DNA from: Actinomycetota bacterium
GTDB taxonomy: Bacteria > Actinomycetota > Actinomycetes > Nanopelagicales > Nanopelagicaceae
Direction: 5' to 3'
Assembly: GCA_009702845.1 (NCBI GenBank)
Contig: WLHG01000053.1
Location: forward strand, 1 to 7,048
DNA: 7,048 nt
Positions 1 through 7,048 of the stretch are shown here, in pieces. The notes below the pieces were generated by a model. It had not been told where the DNA came from. It saw only the letters and a list, made by a program, of their open reading frames with translations, and ran no database searches. Within the stretch, counting starts at the first letter, position 1. Each line of letters starts with the position of its first letter. A program made the translations under genes and the position numbers.

Positions 1-225
1 CTCTTGATTGTTGATGGACCCCCAGGATCTAAGAATCCGAATGCCCGCAAGCCTGCCCTCTCTGAATTAATAGGACGCCTTTCACCCCGTGCAGTGATCG
101 TTATCGATGATGTAAACCGTGATGGAGAGCGTGAGCTTGCCGAAGCTTTCGCAGAGGCGCTTCCTAACCATGTTCTCACCATTTACCCGCATGAAAAAGG
201 TACGGCAGTTATTTCGCCACGATAA
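1..225 (+). CDS. class I SAM-dependent methyltransferase, C-terminal end (partial, 5' cut by window edge)
   Basis: The frame is open from the first base, so this is the last 74-75 residues of a longer protein and the TTG near the edge need not be its start. The segment LIVDGPPG, followed about 15 residues later by a Pro-Ala-Leu stretch and then IVIDDVNRDGERE, fits the late part of a Rossmann-fold methyltransferase of the Methyltransf_24 type. In that family an 'hhhhDGPPG' strand and an 'hhhDDxxRxxE' strand follow the SAM-binding half. The SAM-binding motifs and the substrate are outside the window. The gene stops at TAA 223-225 only 3 nt before the next start codon, so the two methyltransferase genes are probably cotranscribed. 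The family call is reasonable; the substrate is unknown. Confidence 0.7.
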   Translation, partial: LLIVDGPPGSKNPNARKPALSELIGRLSPRAVIVIDDVNRDGERELAEAFAEALPNHVLTIYPHEKGTAVISPR

Positions 226-228
226 ACC

Positions 229-1419
229 ATGGCACCCTCACTAGAAGATGCACTTCATGATGCAAGCACCCGTATTGTTGATACAGCAGCTTTGGTGCGC
301 GTGGTTTTATCTGGATGTCGTCGCAATATGGTTACTGAGTTCGAGCGCATTGATATTCGTCCCGTTGAGATAAAAGGGAAGGTTCTTTTACAAATTAGTC
401 ATAACGATGGTCGCGCAACTACTGTCAAAAACCTTATTCCAGAGCTTCAGGATGTTCTGGCACTGATATCGAGCGGTTATTCCAATATTTTAGTTGACAC
501 CACCAAGGGCTCTATGTCGGTACGTGTTACTAAGAGTGGTGATGCCCAGGTACATTTTGAAAAGAAATCAATGGAGCAAGACCTGAGCCACGATAAGAAG
601 AAAACGCGTCTTTTAGATCCATCTGATCCATTTTTGTTGGAAGTTGGTATAGCCGACCACAAAGGTGCGATTAAGCCATCTAAGCAGGATAAGTACATGC
701 AAGTTGAGGAGTTCTTGCGCCTTTTAGCGCCAACACTTAAAGCGGCAATCGAGGCGGGACAGATACATAAACCAACTAAGGACAAACCACTTTCAATCGT
801 AGATCTTGGATGTGGACATGCCTACTTGACCTTTGCAGCGCATCAATACCTTCACTCAATTGGTATTCCAGTCATGGTAACTGGAATTGATGTTCGTACA
901 GCATCACGTGATCGAAATAATTCAATTGCGCAAAAACTTGGAGTTACTTCAACAATTACATTTAAAGCAGAAGAGATTGCAACAACTTCGGCAGAACATG
1001 CCGATGTGGCGATCGCCTTGCATGCTTGCGATACCGCAACTGATGATGCAATTGCTTGGGCGGTTAACGGCGGGGCTAAACTTTTACTTATTGCGCCATG
1101 CTGTCACCACGATATTCAATCTCAAATGGAAACAAGTCCTGAACCATGGGGCGCTATGACCAAGTTTGGTTTAATGAAAGAGCGTTTGGGTGATTTATTA
1201 ACAGATTCTCTGCGAGCTCAAATTCTACGTATTGCTGGATATCGCGTTGAACTCATTGAATTTATTGGCGGAGAACATACTCCACGTAATCTCATGATTC
1301 GGGCAGTTAAAACAGGGGCATCTGCCGAGGCCATCGATATCCAGAGATATCGGGAGATTTGTAGGCAATGGGCCATTACGCCTGCCCTTGAGAAGAAACT
1401 TCCAACTCTCTTCATCGGT

Positions 1420-1422
<3 letters not shown>
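229..1422 (+). CDS. class I SAM-dependent methyltransferase (Methyltransf_32-like)
   Basis: This 397-residue soluble protein has an N-terminal region of about 145 residues of unknown role, then a methyltransferase fold. The SAM-binding glycine loop is DLGCGHAYLT at residues 192-201. An acidic residue follows at the end of strand 2 (GID, 219-221). ALHACDTATDDA lies at 263-274, APCCHH at 289-294, and HTPRNLMIRA at 350-359. The combination of 'ALHACDTATD' and 'PCCH' is typical of the Methyltransf_32 family, which also includes the eukaryotic GSTCD and METTL25 relatives. The lysine-rich segment before the glycine loop (SKQDKYMQVEEF, 151-162) is also a family feature. The substrate is not established, and RNA or protein are both conceivable. 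The ATG lies 3 nt after the previous stop, with no clear Shine-Dalgarno sequence and no -10 hexamer at the leaderless distance, so translation by coupling is likely. Its TAG stop is reused as part of the argG promoter. Confidence 0.8.
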
Positions 1423-2756
<1,334 letters not shown>

Positions 2757-2757
<1 letters not shown>

Positions 2758-2761
2758 AGGA
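2757..2761 (+). promoter_or_regulatory. ribosome binding site of the FKBP lipoprotein gene
   Basis: AAGGA begins on the last base of the argG TAA stop and lies 5 nt before the ATG at 2767. It supports that start and suggests the isomerase gene is translated from an argG read-through transcript, since a leaderless-type -10 is absent here. Confidence 0.65.
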
Positions 2762-2766
2762 CGGAT

Positions 2767-3258
2767 ATGAAAATTCATAGAAAACTAGCAATCGCAGCGA
2801 TAATTGCGCTATCGATTACATCCCTAACTGCATGCGGAGGAGAAGATAAAGTGTCAGATACAGCAGCGGCAGGACTTCCTTCAGTAACAGGCAATGCAGG
2901 AGAGGCACCAACGATTGCGGCGCCAACTGGAACGCCTCCAACAACTTTACAGACACAAGACGTCATTGCTGGAACGGGCACTGAAGTTCTTGCAACCTCA
3001 ACGCTGACTGTGCATTACACCTTAATGACATGGTCAAAAGGTGAAATCGTTGATTCGTCATGGATGAGAGGACAACCTTCAACTTTCCCGCTCGCTAATG
3101 TAATTCCCGGTTGGCAACAAGGCCTGCCTGGTGCAAAAGTTGGTGGACGACGTTTGCTTGTTATTCCACCTGATCTTGGTTATGGAGCCAGTGGCACTGG
3201 GTCAATTGCTCCGAATGAAACTCTAATCTTCGTAGTCGACATCATTGGTGTTTCATAG
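2767..3258 (+). CDS. FKBP-type peptidyl-prolyl cis-trans isomerase, secreted lipoprotein
   Basis: This protein is predicted to catalyse cis-trans isomerisation of prolyl bonds outside the cytoplasmic membrane. It has a basic N-terminus, a hydrophobic core at residues 7-20, and lipobox LTAC at 20-23, so Cys23 should be lipidated and anchor it to the membrane. A low-complexity Ala/Thr/Pro/Gly linker (about 30-62) leads to a single FKBP domain (about 65-163). Compared with human FKBP12, pocket residues are kept as Tyr84 (Tyr26), Asp96 (Asp37), Phe107 (Phe46), Val112-Ile113, Trp116 (Trp59), Tyr139 (Tyr82) and Phe155 (Phe99). Phe36 is replaced by Val95, and the loop after Tyr139 is one residue shorter. 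The near-complete pocket suggests an active isomerase. It follows argG by 9 nt and is probably cotranscribed with it, with no obvious functional link to arginine synthesis. Confidence 0.92.
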   Translation: MKIHRKLAIAAIIALSITSLTACGGEDKVSDTAAAGLPSVTGNAGEAPTIAAPTGTPPTTLQTQDVIAGTGTEVLATSTLTVHYTLMTWSKGEIVDSSWMRGQPSTFPLANVIPGWQQGLPGAKVGGRRLLVIPPDLGYGASGTGSIAPNETLIFVVDIIGVS

Positions 3259-3259
3259 T

Positions 3260-3296
3260 TTGCCTGTTGTTCATCTTGCCTTGATAGCATTTTGAC
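3260..3296 (+). promoter_or_regulatory. leaderless promoter of the aquaporin-arsC unit
   Basis: TAGCAT at 3285-3290 matches TANNNT and ends 6 nt before the GTG start at 3297, placing the predicted transcription start on the G of GTG. A weak -35 candidate is TTGCCT at 3260-3265, with a longish 19-nt spacer. There is no Shine-Dalgarno sequence before GTG. No convincing dyad for an ArsR-type repressor was seen in this 38-bp gap, so arsenic-responsive control is not evident from the sequence. Confidence 0.55.
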
Positions 3297-3944
3297 GTGA
3301 AGAGACTCCTCAGCGAGTTCCTCGGAACTCTCACTTTAGTTGCCATAGTCGTCGGCTCAGGAATCATGGCAACTGATTTATCACATGATGTGGGTGTTCA
3401 GCTACTCATTAATACGATCTCAACGGTATTTGGGCTTCTTGTCCTAATCCAAATTCTTGGACCGATTAGTGGTGCGCATTTCAACCCAGTCGTAACATTG
3501 GTTGATTTAATTGAAGGCAAGATAAATATTTTGGGCTTTATCCAATATGTCGTGGCTCAGATTCTAGGTGCCATATCTGGCGCCATTCTTGCAAATGCAA
3601 TGTTTGGCCACCCACTTATTGAGAGTGCCACAAAGCTGCGATCGGGTGGCAACCTATATCTTGGCGAAATCGTTGCAACTGCCGGTTTAATTCTGATTAT
3701 CAATCTCTTAATCAAGCAGGAGAAGCTGGCGTTAATTCCGGTGATGGTTGCAGCGTGGATTGGAAGTGCATACTTCTTTACAAGCTCAACCTCATTTGCA
3801 AATCCAGCTGTAACAATCGGGCGAACGCTTTCTGACTCCTTTGCAGGAATTGCTCCCGGATGTGCCCCGCGTTTTATCGCAGCTCAAATTCTCGGCGCCC
3901 TTATAGGTTTGGGCCTAACAAAGGTACTCACTCATGACAAGTAA
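3297..3944 (+). CDS. AqpS-like aquaglyceroporin (MIP family), probable arsenite channel
   Basis: This 215-residue integral membrane protein has six hydrophobic segments and the two half-helix motifs of the major intrinsic protein family: SGAHFNPVVT around residues 58-67 (NPV in place of NPA) and FANPAVTIGR at 167-176. The N-terminus KRLLSEFLGT is typical of MIP proteins and supports the GTG start. In water-selective aquaporins an arginine directly follows the second NPA and forms the selectivity filter. Here that residue is Val172, which implies a wider, less water-specific pore. Known precedent is the AqpS channel of Sinorhizobium meliloti, encoded in its ars operon, which lets arsenite out after ArsC reduces arsenate. 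The arsenate reductase gene overlapping the end of this one makes the same role likely here. Glycerol or another small neutral solute remains possible. The gene is probably transcribed from its own leaderless promoter. Confidence 0.88.
   Translation: MKRLLSEFLGTLTLVAIVVGSGIMATDLSHDVGVQLLINTISTVFGLLVLIQILGPISGAHFNPVVTLVDLIEGKINILGFIQYVVAQILGAISGAILANAMFGHPLIESATKLRSGGNLYLGEIVATAGLILIINLLIKQEKLALIPVMVAAWIGSAYFFTSSTSFANPAVTIGRTLSDSFAGIAPGCAPRFIAAQILGALIGLGLTKVLTHDK
3920..3924 (+). promoter_or_regulatory. ribosome binding site of arsC inside the aquaporin gene
   Basis: AAAGG lies 8 nt before the arsC ATG at 3934, within the last codons of the aquaporin gene. It supports the overlapping start and independent or coupled initiation on the shared mRNA. 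Confidence 0.55.
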
Positions 3945-4344
3945 GCCATCGGTTTTATTCGTATGCGTCCATAACGCTGGCCGTTCTCAAATGGCCTCAG
4001 GTTTTATGCAACACCTAGGTAAAGGCCAGATAGATGTTCTATCGGCTGGCTCTGCACCGAAGGATTCAATAAATCCAATTGCAATTGAGGCGATGGCTGA
4101 ACTCGGCATCGATATCGCCAACAATGTTCCAAAGATATTAACCACCGAAGCCGTGCAAGCTTCCGATGTCGTTATAACTATGGGCTGCGGTGATGCCTGT
4201 CCGTTTTATCCGGGCAAGCGATACGAGGATTGGGTACTCGAAGATCCAGCCGGTCAAGGCATCGAGCCAGTGCGCGTTATTAGAGATGAGATTAAGGCGC
4301 GCGTTGAGGCGCTAATCTCTGAACTGCTTTCACCAAAACTCTAA
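3934..4344 (+). CDS. arsC: arsenate reductase, low-molecular-weight phosphatase type
   Basis: The enzyme reduces arsenate to arsenite in the cytoplasm. The 136 residues form a single LMW protein-tyrosine-phosphatase fold. The P-loop CVHNAGRS occupies residues 11-18, with nucleophile Cys11 and Arg17. Two further cysteines, Cys85 and Cys89, lie in GCGDACPFYPG (84-94). The general-acid aspartate is Asp104 in EDPAGQG (103-109), and the C-terminal helix holds the RDEIKARVE segment. In staphylococcal ArsC, Cys10, Cys82 and Cys89 form a thioredoxin-coupled relay; here the second pair is spaced CX3C rather than CX6C. In actinobacteria related enzymes may use mycothiol and mycoredoxin instead, and the sequence does not decide which. 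The start overlaps the aquaporin gene by 11 nt, which argues for coupled expression and supports the arsenic role over a protein phosphatase role. The stop codon overlaps the stop of the convergent gene. Confidence 0.92.
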   Translation: MTSKPSVLFVCVHNAGRSQMASGFMQHLGKGQIDVLSAGSAPKDSINPIAIEAMAELGIDIANNVPKILTTEAVQASDVVITMGCGDACPFYPGKRYEDWVLEDPAGQGIEPVRVIRDEIKARVEALISELLSPKL

Positions 4345-5405
4345 ATACTTTGTCCGCGCTCTAATTGATGCGGCCAGGCAATCTTTACTCCTAATTTTTC
4401 AGCGGCATTGAGCGCCCAACGAGGATTTCGAATCATTGCCCGCGCAAGGAAAACGGCATCGGCCTCACCGGTTTCAATAATGTACTGAGCCTGTTCGGGC
4501 TCGGTGATTAGACCAACCGCTGCAGTCATGATCGCTGCCTCTGCGCGAATCGCGGCAGCAAATGGAACTTGGAAACCTGGGGTCGCTTTAATAGGTGCAT
4601 TATGAACATTGCCACCGGTGGATACATCAATCAAATCGACACCTAAGGCTTTTAGCTGAGTACATAATTCAATCGAATCAACTAAGTTCCAACCATCATC
4701 AACCCAATCCGTTGCAGAGATGCGCACGAAGAGGGGAGTGCTCACAGGTATAGCTGCGCGTACTGCCTTCACGGTTTCAAGCAAGAAGCGAACTCGGTTT
4801 TCAAAGCTGCCGCCATATTCATCACTTCGGGTATTTGCCAGAGGTGAATAAAACTGGTGCATTAAATAACCGTGAGCGGCATGAATTTCGATGACATCAA
4901 AGCCGACCGCCACGGCACGTTTAGCGGCGGCGACAAAATCATGGGTGAGTTGGTGAATCTCATCAATTGTTAAGGCGCGAGGTTCGGGATAGCCATGGAA
5001 TGCAATAGCCGATGAGGAAACACTCTGCCAACCGCCCTCTTCGGGAGTAGCCATCCTGTGATCATCCCAAGGTCGCATTGTTGCCCCTTTACGACCAGCA
5101 TGAGCTAATTGGATTCCTATTTTCACATTTTGTGAATGCGCAAAATCGATCATTGGCTTAAAAGCCGCTGCATGTGCATCATCGTTAATTGTTGGACAAG
5201 CAATTGATATTCGACCTTCCGGTACAACGCCAGTTGCCTCGACCATAATTAATCCTGGTCCACCAGTTGCAAAGGCGTTCAAATGCGCGCTGTGCCACTC
5301 ACCAACAAAACCATCAGTGGCTGAGTATTGGCACATAGGTGAGACCCACACGCGGTTTTGAAAAGTTACTGAGCCAATGGTTAGGGGATCAAATAATGTG
5401 TTCAT
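4341..5405 (-). CDS. NADH:flavin oxidoreductase, Old Yellow Enzyme family (YqjM-like)
   Basis: This is an FMN-dependent ene-reductase predicted to use NAD(P)H to reduce activated C=C bonds of enones, nitro compounds or similar electrophiles in the cytoplasm. The 354-residue TIM barrel aligns well with Bacillus subtilis YqjM (338 residues). The class-typical Cys25 and Tyr27 are in SPMCQYS (22-28). QLAHAGRK is at 99-106, and the substrate-binding pair is His175/His178 in IHAAHGYL (174-181), with Tyr180. FMN-phosphate region residues include Arg227 and Arg322. The C-terminal LERGQ (349-353) carries Arg350, the counterpart of the arginine finger that YqjM donates to the neighbouring subunit. An insertion of about 15 residues after residue 108 explains the greater length. 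It lies 22 nt downstream of the TSUP gene but has its own leaderless-type -10. The physiological substrate is unknown; an oxidative or electrophile stress role is typical. Confidence 0.93.
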   Translation of the reverse strand: MNTLFDPLTIGSVTFQNRVWVSPMCQYSATDGFVGEWHSAHLNAFATGGPGLIMVEATGVVPEGRISIACPTINDDAHAAAFKPMIDFAHSQNVKIGIQLAHAGRKGATMRPWDDHRMATPEEGGWQSVSSSAIAFHGYPEPRALTIDEIHQLTHDFVAAAKRAVAVGFDVIEIHAAHGYLMHQFYSPLANTRSDEYGGSFENRVRFLLETVKAVRAAIPVSTPLFVRISATDWVDDGWNLVDSIELCTQLKALGVDLIDVSTGGNVHNAPIKATPGFQVPFAAAIRAEAAIMTAAVGLITEPEQAQYIIETGEADAVFLARAMIRNPRWALNAAEKLGVKIAWPHQLERGQSI

Positions 5406-5417
5406 GTGGCAAGTCTA
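5406..5417 (-). promoter_or_regulatory. leaderless promoter -10 of the Old Yellow Enzyme gene
   Basis: On the minus strand TAGACT (5417 down to 5412) is followed by exactly 6 nt and then ATG. The 15-base block through ATG is identical to the argG block at 13 positions. No Shine-Dalgarno sequence is present. A poor -35 candidate TTTTGC (5440 to 5435) lies 17 nt upstream, inside the end of the TSUP gene. Confidence 0.6.
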
Positions 5418-5427
5418 CGTGTTTAAT

Positions 5428-6168
5428 CTAGGAAGCAAAAATGAATTTTGCACCCGCAATGAGTAGAACGAGACCCAAAGCACGTTTTATCCCGGTACTA
5501 GAAAGCCTAGAAATTCCAAAGCGGGTTCCGATGAAAGCACCTAATAGAACTGCAACTACGAAGAGGGGAAGCTCTGCGGGCAGCGATTGAGCTGATTGCA
5601 CATTACCAAGCAAACCTGCAACTGAGTTAACAAAGATAAAACCGGCCACCGTTCCGCTAGCCTGTTTAACACTGACCCAGCCAAGCCAAATTATCAATGG
5701 AGATAAAAAGATTCCACCACCTGTGCCAGTAATTCCAGATAGCAAGCCAACGCATGCACCAATAAACACGGCTAACCCAGAATTAATGCTGCGTTGAGAG
5801 CGATCGACCTGCAAGGCTTGAACCAGGAAACGGACTCCAGAGATAAGTAGAAGTATTCCGATAATAGGTTTATAGATGTGACTGGGCAGATTAATATGCC
5901 CACCGATAAATGCCGCTGGGATTGAACCAATCACTAGATACATAAATAGAAATTTATTGAAGAAGTTACTGCGCATGTAGCGAAAACTTGTATAGGACGA
6001 GACAAAGATATTTAGAGTTAATGCCGTTGGTTTGATTACAAGGGGTGGCAGATCAAATAACGTCATAATGGCGATATAGGCCGATGCCCCAGCATGGCCA
6101 ACTGAGGTATACAAAATCGCGCCAAGAAACAAGCATCCAGCTATTGCGAGTGAATGTACTTCAAACAT
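5428..6168 (-). CDS. TSUP (TauE/SafE) family membrane transporter
   Basis: This 246-residue protein is strongly hydrophobic, with about seven to eight predicted membrane segments arranged as two related halves, as usual in the TauE/SafE family. The repeated family motif is visible as YTSVGHAGASAYIAIMTLF in the first half (residues 20-38) and SGITGTGGGIFLSPLII in the second (144-160), each a Gly-rich break within a helix. Members have been linked to export of sulfite, sulfoacetate or other organosulfur anions; the substrate cannot be read from this sequence. Length is normal for the family. The ATG is supported by a -10 hexamer exactly 6 nt upstream on the minus strand. The gene precedes the Old Yellow Enzyme gene by 22 nt on the same strand, so partial cotranscription is possible, but no shared pathway is evident. 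Confidence 0.88.
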   Translation of the reverse strand: MFEVHSLAIAGCLFLGAILYTSVGHAGASAYIAIMTLFDLPPLVIKPTALTLNIFVSSYTSFRYMRSNFFNKFLFMYLVIGSIPAAFIGGHINLPSHIYKPIIGILLLISGVRFLVQALQVDRSQRSINSGLAVFIGACVGLLSGITGTGGGIFLSPLIIWLGWVSVKQASGTVAGFIFVNSVAGLLGNVQSAQSLPAELPLFVVAVLLGAFIGTRFGISRLSSTGIKRALGLVLLIAGAKFIFAS

Positions 6169-6180
6169 TACAGAATAGTA
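6169..6180 (-). promoter_or_regulatory. leaderless promoter -10 of the TSUP gene
   Basis: On the minus strand TACTAT (6180 down to 6175) matches TANNNT and is followed by 6 nt and then ATG, giving a transcription start on the A of the start codon. No Shine-Dalgarno sequence and no clear -35 box were seen. Confidence 0.55.
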
Positions 6181-6203
6181 CCGAGTAAACTCTCCAGATT
6201 ACC

Positions 6204-6260
6204 TAGACTTGGCAAGATTACGGTATGAAGTAGGCGGCACAAAGTTATAGATTTTTCTCA
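6204..6260 (+). promoter_or_regulatory. probable promoter region of the trigger factor gene
   Basis: Two TANNNT hexamers occur in the divergent gap on this strand: TAGACT at 6204-6209 and TAGATT at 6248-6253, the latter inside TTATAGATT. Either would give a leadered mRNA (about 60 nt or about 16 nt of 5' UTR), which fits the strong Shine-Dalgarno sequence of this gene. No good -35 element accompanies either, so the choice is open. Confidence 0.35.
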
Positions 6261-6262
6261 GT

Positions 6263-6270
6263 GAGGGGGG
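6263..6270 (+). promoter_or_regulatory. strong Shine-Dalgarno sequence of the trigger factor gene
   Basis: GAGGGGGG lies 5 nt before the ATG at 6276. This is the clearest ribosome binding site in the window and contrasts with the leaderless starts of the neighbouring genes. It fixes the trigger factor start. Confidence 0.7.
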
Positions 6271-6275
6271 CGCTA

Positions 6276-7048
6276 ATGAAGAGCATCGTTGAGAATCTAA
6301 CCGTGAGTAGCGTGCACCTGAGTGTTGAAGTTACATTTACAGAGTTCGAGGTTCATATTGCAAAATCCTACGCAAGGGCATCTGCCGGAATAAATGTCCC
6401 AGGTTTTCGTAGAGGAAAAACCCCTGCATCGATAGTTAACATACGAATCGGCCGCCCCAAAGTCATAAGCGAAGCGATTAGATCGGCAATACCAGATTTC
6501 TTTGAGAAAGCTTTAGTTGAGCACGGACTCTTTGCCATTGGACGACCCACATTCAGAGTTGAAAATTATATTGATTATCAACCTCTGACTTTTAGCACAG
6601 AAATAAATATTCGCCCCGCAATCGATTTACCAGATTTTTCAGAGATTTCAGTAACAGTTTCCGATGCATTAGTCAATGAGGAAGATATTAATGAAAAACT
6701 AAAAGAGATCCAATTAAGATATGCCGAGCATGAGTTATCTCAAGGCGTAATACGAGATGATGAATTTCTAGGCTCCGATGCATTTGCCAGCTCAATTTCC
6801 GATTTCAAAACTTTAATTGAGCTTAAGAATGATATTGCTACTAATCTCACGGAGATGAAAAAAGTTGAGCAAGGCGCACAGGCTAGGGATTTAGTATTGG
6901 AAAAATTGATGAGTGATCTAGATATTGCCTTGCCAGAGGATTTGATTGAAAAAGAAGTCAACGAACATCTCGCAAGGGAAAATCGCTCAGAGGATCTCGA
7001 ACATAGAACTGAAGTCGATCTTGAAGTACGTAAATCGTTAAAGTCAGA
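6276..7048 (+). CDS. tig: trigger factor lacking the PPIase domain (partial, 3' cut by window edge)
   Basis: Trigger factor is the ribosome-bound chaperone that meets nascent chains at the exit tunnel. The 257 residues visible begin with a canonical ribosome-binding domain (1 to about 145). The docking signature VPGFRRGKTP is at 41-50, and actinobacterial-style blocks GRPKVISEAI (59-68) and LPDFSEISVTV (118-128) follow. A C-terminal chaperone domain is recognisable from about residue 161 (DDEFLGSDAF, then LIELKNDI, QGAQARDLVLEKLM and LPEDLIEKEV). In ordinary trigger factors about 90 residues of FKBP-like PPIase domain separate these parts. Here only about 10 residues (150-160) do. The frame is continuous, so this is a clean domain loss, not a frameshift. 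Codon use is unlike argG: ATA for 7 of 23 isoleucines, AGA/AGG for 8 of 16 arginines. It could be the sole trigger factor or a divergent second copy. The end of the gene and its downstream neighbours are not visible. Confidence 0.9.
   Translation, partial: MKSIVENLTVSSVHLSVEVTFTEFEVHIAKSYARASAGINVPGFRRGKTPASIVNIRIGRPKVISEAIRSAIPDFFEKALVEHGLFAIGRPTFRVENYIDYQPLTFSTEINIRPAIDLPDFSEISVTVSDALVNEEDINEKLKEIQLRYAEHELSQGVIRDDEFLGSDAFASSISDFKTLIELKNDIATNLTEMKKVEQGAQARDLVLEKLMSDLDIALPEDLIEKEVNEHLARENRSEDLEHRTEVDLEVRKSLKS

Follow-up and report, generated by a model that had tools for sequence, protein, structure and literature searches.

At the 3' end of the window analysed here, a 7,048-nt stretch of contig WLHG01000053.1 (positions 1 to 7,048; assembly GCA_009702845.1, Nanopelagicaceae), lies the beginning of an unusual tig gene. 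Its product, a trigger factor (TF), combines the ribosome-binding domain with the substrate-binding cradle; the FKBP-type peptidyl-prolyl isomerase (PPIase) head is deleted. There is strong support for a natural two-domain TF. The gene and its parts are arranged as follows.

6263..6269 (+): GAGGGGG, a candidate Shine-Dalgarno-like sequence read by eye, 6 bases 5' of the ATG
6276..7046 (+): short tig gene (FKBP-less TF), ATG start; first 257 of about 337 codons, continuing past the window end
6276..6611 (+): ribosome-binding N domain, residues 1-112
6402..6425 (+): ribosome-docking motif GFRRGKTP, residues 43-50; GFRxGKxP is present in 22/22 short TFs
6612..6755 (+): linker strand and helix, residues 113-160, leading into the PPIase head in full-length TFs (from alignments; helix 135-155 in the predicted model)
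6755..6756 (+): junction where the FKBP/PPIase domain is absent (from the alignment)
6756..7046 (+): start of the C-terminal substrate-binding cradle domain (Pfam Trigger_C), residues 161-257, running to 337 in the database protein P0001

An in-frame GTG at 6261 is an alternative start that would add five codons; no promoter or terminator was found in 6100-6330.

In the window protein, hmmscan matches residues 1-145 to all 144 positions of the Trigger_N profile (PF05697; 109.1 bits, cut-off 22.2) and residues 179-233 to Trigger_C (PF05698; 28.4 bits, cut-off 22.7), the latter match being clipped by the window end; FKBP_C gives no match at expect (E) values up to 0.01. The closest database match, P0001 (337 residues; 29 member sequences, 13 contigs), completes the protein and differs from the 257 residues of the window at a single position, 149 (Y/F). 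A first-pass annotation, made from the window sequence and its open reading frames, had proposed a domain search on the full protein; P0001 supplies it, with Trigger_N at 1-145, Trigger_C at 179-322 (63.1 bits) and no FKBP_C. The domain (PF00254) is likewise not found in P0009, P0037 and P0123 in a scan at E values up to 1, in which the HMMER filters discard most matches above about 0.1, and the same run recovers it from the middle of the full-length relatives P0126 and P0018 (36.0 and 36.8 bits). Against the TIGR00115 equivalog cut-off of 180.2 bits, the four of the 22 short entries that were scanned score 188.8 (P0089), 182.5 (P0001), 162.7 (P0037) and 151.1 (P0123); the 257-residue window fragment reaches 144.1 bits.

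When P0001 is aligned with the E. coli TF, E. coli residues 161-243 have no partner. The gap falls between P0001 residues 160 and 161, and 78 residues of full-length P0126 are absent at this junction. Relative to the E. coli head, given as residues 150-245 (PMC4626277), the aligned gap begins about 11 residues inside the head and stops 2 short of its end, the linker leading into the head being retained in the short TF. The exact place of the junction depends on the alignment because this segment is poorly conserved. The C-terminal tail past P0001 residue 337 is also shorter than in the aligned full-length relatives. The first-pass annotation had described a TF with its PPIase domain cleanly missing, GFRRGK at residues 43-48 and a junction near 6717-6770. 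All three descriptions hold: the motif segment occupies 6402-6419, the gap lies at 6755/6756, and P0001 harbours no displaced FKBP-like domain, either in its middle or at its C-terminus.

The short TFs form a family. A first search returned 18 short proteins among the best 120 of 216 matches; a profile search with 18 short TFs found, among the best 120 of 760 matches, 22 entries (292-337 residues) without an FKBP_C label and 98 with one. Scoring in the profile search was confined to the 7,999 candidates with the most words in common, and further short forms may rank below the matches listed. The precomputed Pfam labels of 22/22 short entries do not include the FKBP domain; the label alone is no test of domain loss, because P0111, P0112 and P0116 in the first search are full length yet also unlabelled. 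Independent lineages number fewer than 22, since P0011 and P0012 do not differ at any column used for the tree and some further pairs are almost copies of each other. The names mislead as well: four of the 22 entries are called FKBP-type peptidyl-prolyl isomerases, yet lack that domain, which makes them a trap for annotation.

The alignment holds 78 of 185 listed TF proteins, including 56 full-length rows, of which 42 were used for comparisons of identity and conservation and 47 for the residue-specific comparison. In a tree built on the columns shared by the short forms, all 22 short rows fall into one clade (support 100/100), which groups with 42 full-length TF rows (99/98) and sits on a stem of 1.03 changes per site. 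A second tree, without six long or distant rows, again yields the short clade (100/100) and the 64-row group (100/98). Conservation of both retained domains comes close to that in the full-length relatives (cradle, 0.84 in the short forms vs. 0.85); that of the junction does not. Some short TFs were trimmed further. Six rows (P0011, P0012, P0030, P0034, P0037 and P0039) miss an additional stretch, which in P0037 reaches E. coli residue 265 by mapping. The loss is larger in the P0123/P0124 pair (both 292 residues), where P0123 maps to a gap of E. coli 135-263. These two extra trims, which affect the linker and first cradle helix in eight of the 22 entries, lie on separate branches, and the GFRxGKxP motif is kept in both.

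The predicted model of the short TF has a predicted local distance difference test (pLDDT) score of 89 and aligns with a solved TF over 319 residues; a structure prediction had been suggested by the first-pass annotation. The reading of the protein in that annotation as a natural two-domain TF is strongly backed by domain scans, clade, model, E. coli alignment and conservation.

By sequence, phylogeny and predicted fold the short protein is a TF, though not the canonical three-domain one. It shares with the E. coli (1w26) and T. maritima (3gty) proteins the N domain with GFRxGKxP, the linker helix and the cradle, sequence and predicted fold being in agreement; it differs from them by the absent head and the shorter C-terminal tail. 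Gupta in 2010 reportedly engineered a TF without the PPIase domain; to judge by the title, the domain set is the same, but the short TF is natural, divergent and clade-wide. The SurA core differs from the short TF by its periplasmic location and the absence of a ribosome-binding domain. Among natural truncations, chloroplast Tig2, described as the ribosome-binding domain alone (PMC11731035, PMC5587573), resembles the short TF in keeping that domain and is reported to occur beside a full-length form; the cradle absent from Tig2 is present here, as Trigger_C in P0001. The opposite truncation is reported for Mycoplasma MPN555/MG_377, which consist of the C-terminal domain only (PMC13047044), and for N-terminally deficient TF copies of myxobacteria (PMC11559001): these have no ribosome-binding N domain, whereas the short TF has Trigger_N and its motif. 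Loss of the PPIase domain adds a further combination to these natural truncations. A search of the open-licence literature, with supplements such as the list of 23 genomes with several motif-bearing TFs lying outside it, found no report of a natural TF in which the N and C domains are both present and the PPIase domain is missing.

The explanation that we prefer, and hold to be somewhat better than even as a whole, is that the short TF is a ribosome-docked, ATP-independent holdase without isomerase activity, derived from a tig duplication and probably serving as an accessory second TF. An intact GFRxGKxP loop would dock the protein at the 50S exit port, where it would hold nascent chains without ATP and without proline isomerisation. 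The substrate-binding domain of TF is reported to contain four of five substrate sites (PMC6166725). Simulations show the head in contact with arm 1 when TF is collapsed, and in this state clients are bound less strongly (PMC4626277), so a head-less TF should dock and hold with a cradle that, for want of the head-to-arm-1 contact, can no longer be closed by the head. The family probably originated by duplication of tig in the Nanopelagicaceae, followed by head loss, a burst of divergence and then purifying selection, the short TF acting beside a full-length one.

What has been observed is domain content, the grouping of the short forms into a single clade, the conservation of the two retained domains, the predicted fold and motif retention; sequence and fold lead us to predict ribosome docking, holdase activity and a lack of isomerase activity, and duplication and accessory status are inferred as well. 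Several points weigh against this explanation. The fold agrees loosely: overall superposition on solved TFs gives 5-7 Å, and the best Foldseek match has a template modelling (TM) score of only 0.63 by query. Both trees carry a warning that 20 short rows connect to all others through long branches. A mere artefact of this kind is argued against by 33 positions that hold one residue in 22/22 short rows and are shared by fewer than 30% of the 47 full-length rows. The approximately unbiased (AU) test (p 0.254) does not discriminate between a short clade nested in the 42 full-length rows and one placed beside them, and the long stem could also reflect relaxed selection after the only TF was replaced. 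No second tig was seen for the host in the sequence covered, the 7,048-nt window. Placement by a second gene, ArgG, covers the window host alone; for the remaining 21 entries the host is taken from the TF tree.

The strongest competitor, which we nevertheless judge unlikely, is that a head-less orthologue took the place of the full-length protein and is now the sole TF of its lineage. The motif and both domains are conserved as would be expected of a working TF, and genomes with several motif-bearing TFs are reported to be rare: of 15,575 genomes surveyed in mBio in 2024, 390 carried more than one TF, with a single motif-bearing copy in 367 and several such copies in 23, or 0.15% of TF-bearing genomes (PMC11559001). 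The comparison with ArgG points the other way. The window ArgG shares 90-94% identity with the best 120 relatives, the named ones being Actinobacteria/Actinomycetota or Ca. Nanopelagicaceae, and by its sequence the window host is placed in the Nanopelagicaceae. P0001, by contrast, is 43-50% identical to the 42 full-length TFs of the clade (median 0.46), which are 63-100% identical among themselves (median 0.74); all 22 short rows together are 36-50% identical to these full-length TFs (median 0.40). An accessory copy fits a slow ArgG and a strongly diverged TF better than a sole TF does. Two exact-peptide scans of the GTDB r220 species representatives (6 and 2 patterns), run with no positive control and returning no full-length TF either, recovered no member of the short family, which counts weakly against a sole TF and would, as weakly, suit an accessory gene.

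The first-pass annotation had offered two origins, a reduced version in a streamlined genome or a specialised paralogue. Streamlining alone is disfavoured: P0126, a full-length TF of 432 residues named Ca. Nanopelagicaceae, sits on a contig of 1,406,539 bases (its completeness not established), so a family member with a probably small genome keeps the head. Four ArgG relatives named Ca. Nanopelagicaceae have longest contigs of about 1.4 Mb. The accessory paralogue is favoured, short of being demonstrated.

Considerably less probable is that the protein has ceased to be a folding chaperone and is a ribosome-bound factor with another task, e.g., ribosome assembly. The model here is the truncated Tig2, described as a ribosome-binding domain without chaperone activity which, by the title of the report, aids chloroplast ribosome biogenesis (PMC11731035); the long stem and the further trimming around the linker and first cradle helix agree with such a change of role. 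The cradle, however, is kept and is conserved to nearly the same degree as in full-length TFs, as given above. Finally, an assembly deletion or decaying pseudogene is scarcely credible: beyond a somewhat AT-richer gene (GC 0.399 vs. 0.443-0.487 in seven other window genes measured) no support was found, both domains are conserved, the reading frame is open in the window, and an assembly slip is contradicted by the one clade of 22 FKBP-less entries, 21 besides the present one, from several sources.

A broader proposal can be made, tentatively and at a little under even chances: the Nanopelagicaceae would possess a second ribosome-docking TF beside the full-length one, a specialised nascent-chain holdase that escapes the reported TF dosage limit through loss of the head (in some lineages together with a portion of the linker and of the first cradle helix) and not of the ribosome-binding domain. 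It would then depart from the rule by which additional copies abandon ribosome binding. If a full-length TF is present in the same cell, the short TF puts to the test a published claim, namely that loss of ribosome binding is what lets duplicates persist. The purpose of the head is described as unsettled, since it seems dispensable for chaperone activity yet is relatively conserved (PMC11559001). A clade without it, in which both other domains are conserved, is a natural deletion experiment, and the P0037 group and the P0123/P0124 pair have removed even more.

Upstream of the short tig gene lies one divergent neighbour, and the downstream side is beyond the window end.

5428..6168 (-): TauE/SafE-type permease gene (PF01925, 117.9 bits)

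Three Actinomycetota records were fetched for comparison: in Microbacterium tig is followed by two clpP genes, in Tsukamurella by two clpP genes and clpX, and the Nonomuraea record is unannotated there. A phage or plasmid origin was rejected: three scans of viral contigs found no relative, and matches occur in 11 plasmid and 20 phage records, none of which reaches 60% identity. PHROG 26774 matches mainly the N part, the best stretches being residues 1-152 of P0001 and 1-149 of P0123. Seventeen of the 20 'phage' records with TF matches come from human faecal samples; our guess is that the 20 records may contain bacterial DNA.

Of the eight window proteins scanned, one alone matches FKBP. It is encoded by a stand-alone FKBP-type PPIase gene at 2767-3258 (+; 81.5 bits), directly 3' of argG and about 3 kb away from the short tig gene. 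This gene was rejected as a substitute head: its product has, as read by eye, a lipoprotein-like start (a hydrophobic stretch, then LTAC), and such a signal would mean export. Rfam families at gathering scores and tRNAs were searched for, and none was found.

Two further observations concern the other genes of the window. Upstream of argG, 229-1422 (+) encodes a protein of the Methyltransf_32 family (117.6 bits), which also matches TRM13 weakly, at 24 bits and below the cut-off of 26. At 3297-4344 (+), a gene for an MIP/aquaporin-type channel (GTG start; NPV and NPA motifs by eye) overlaps by 11 bases a gene for an LMWPc/ArsC-type arsenate reductase, an arrangement that we take to resemble the aqpS-arsC arsenic detoxification pair.
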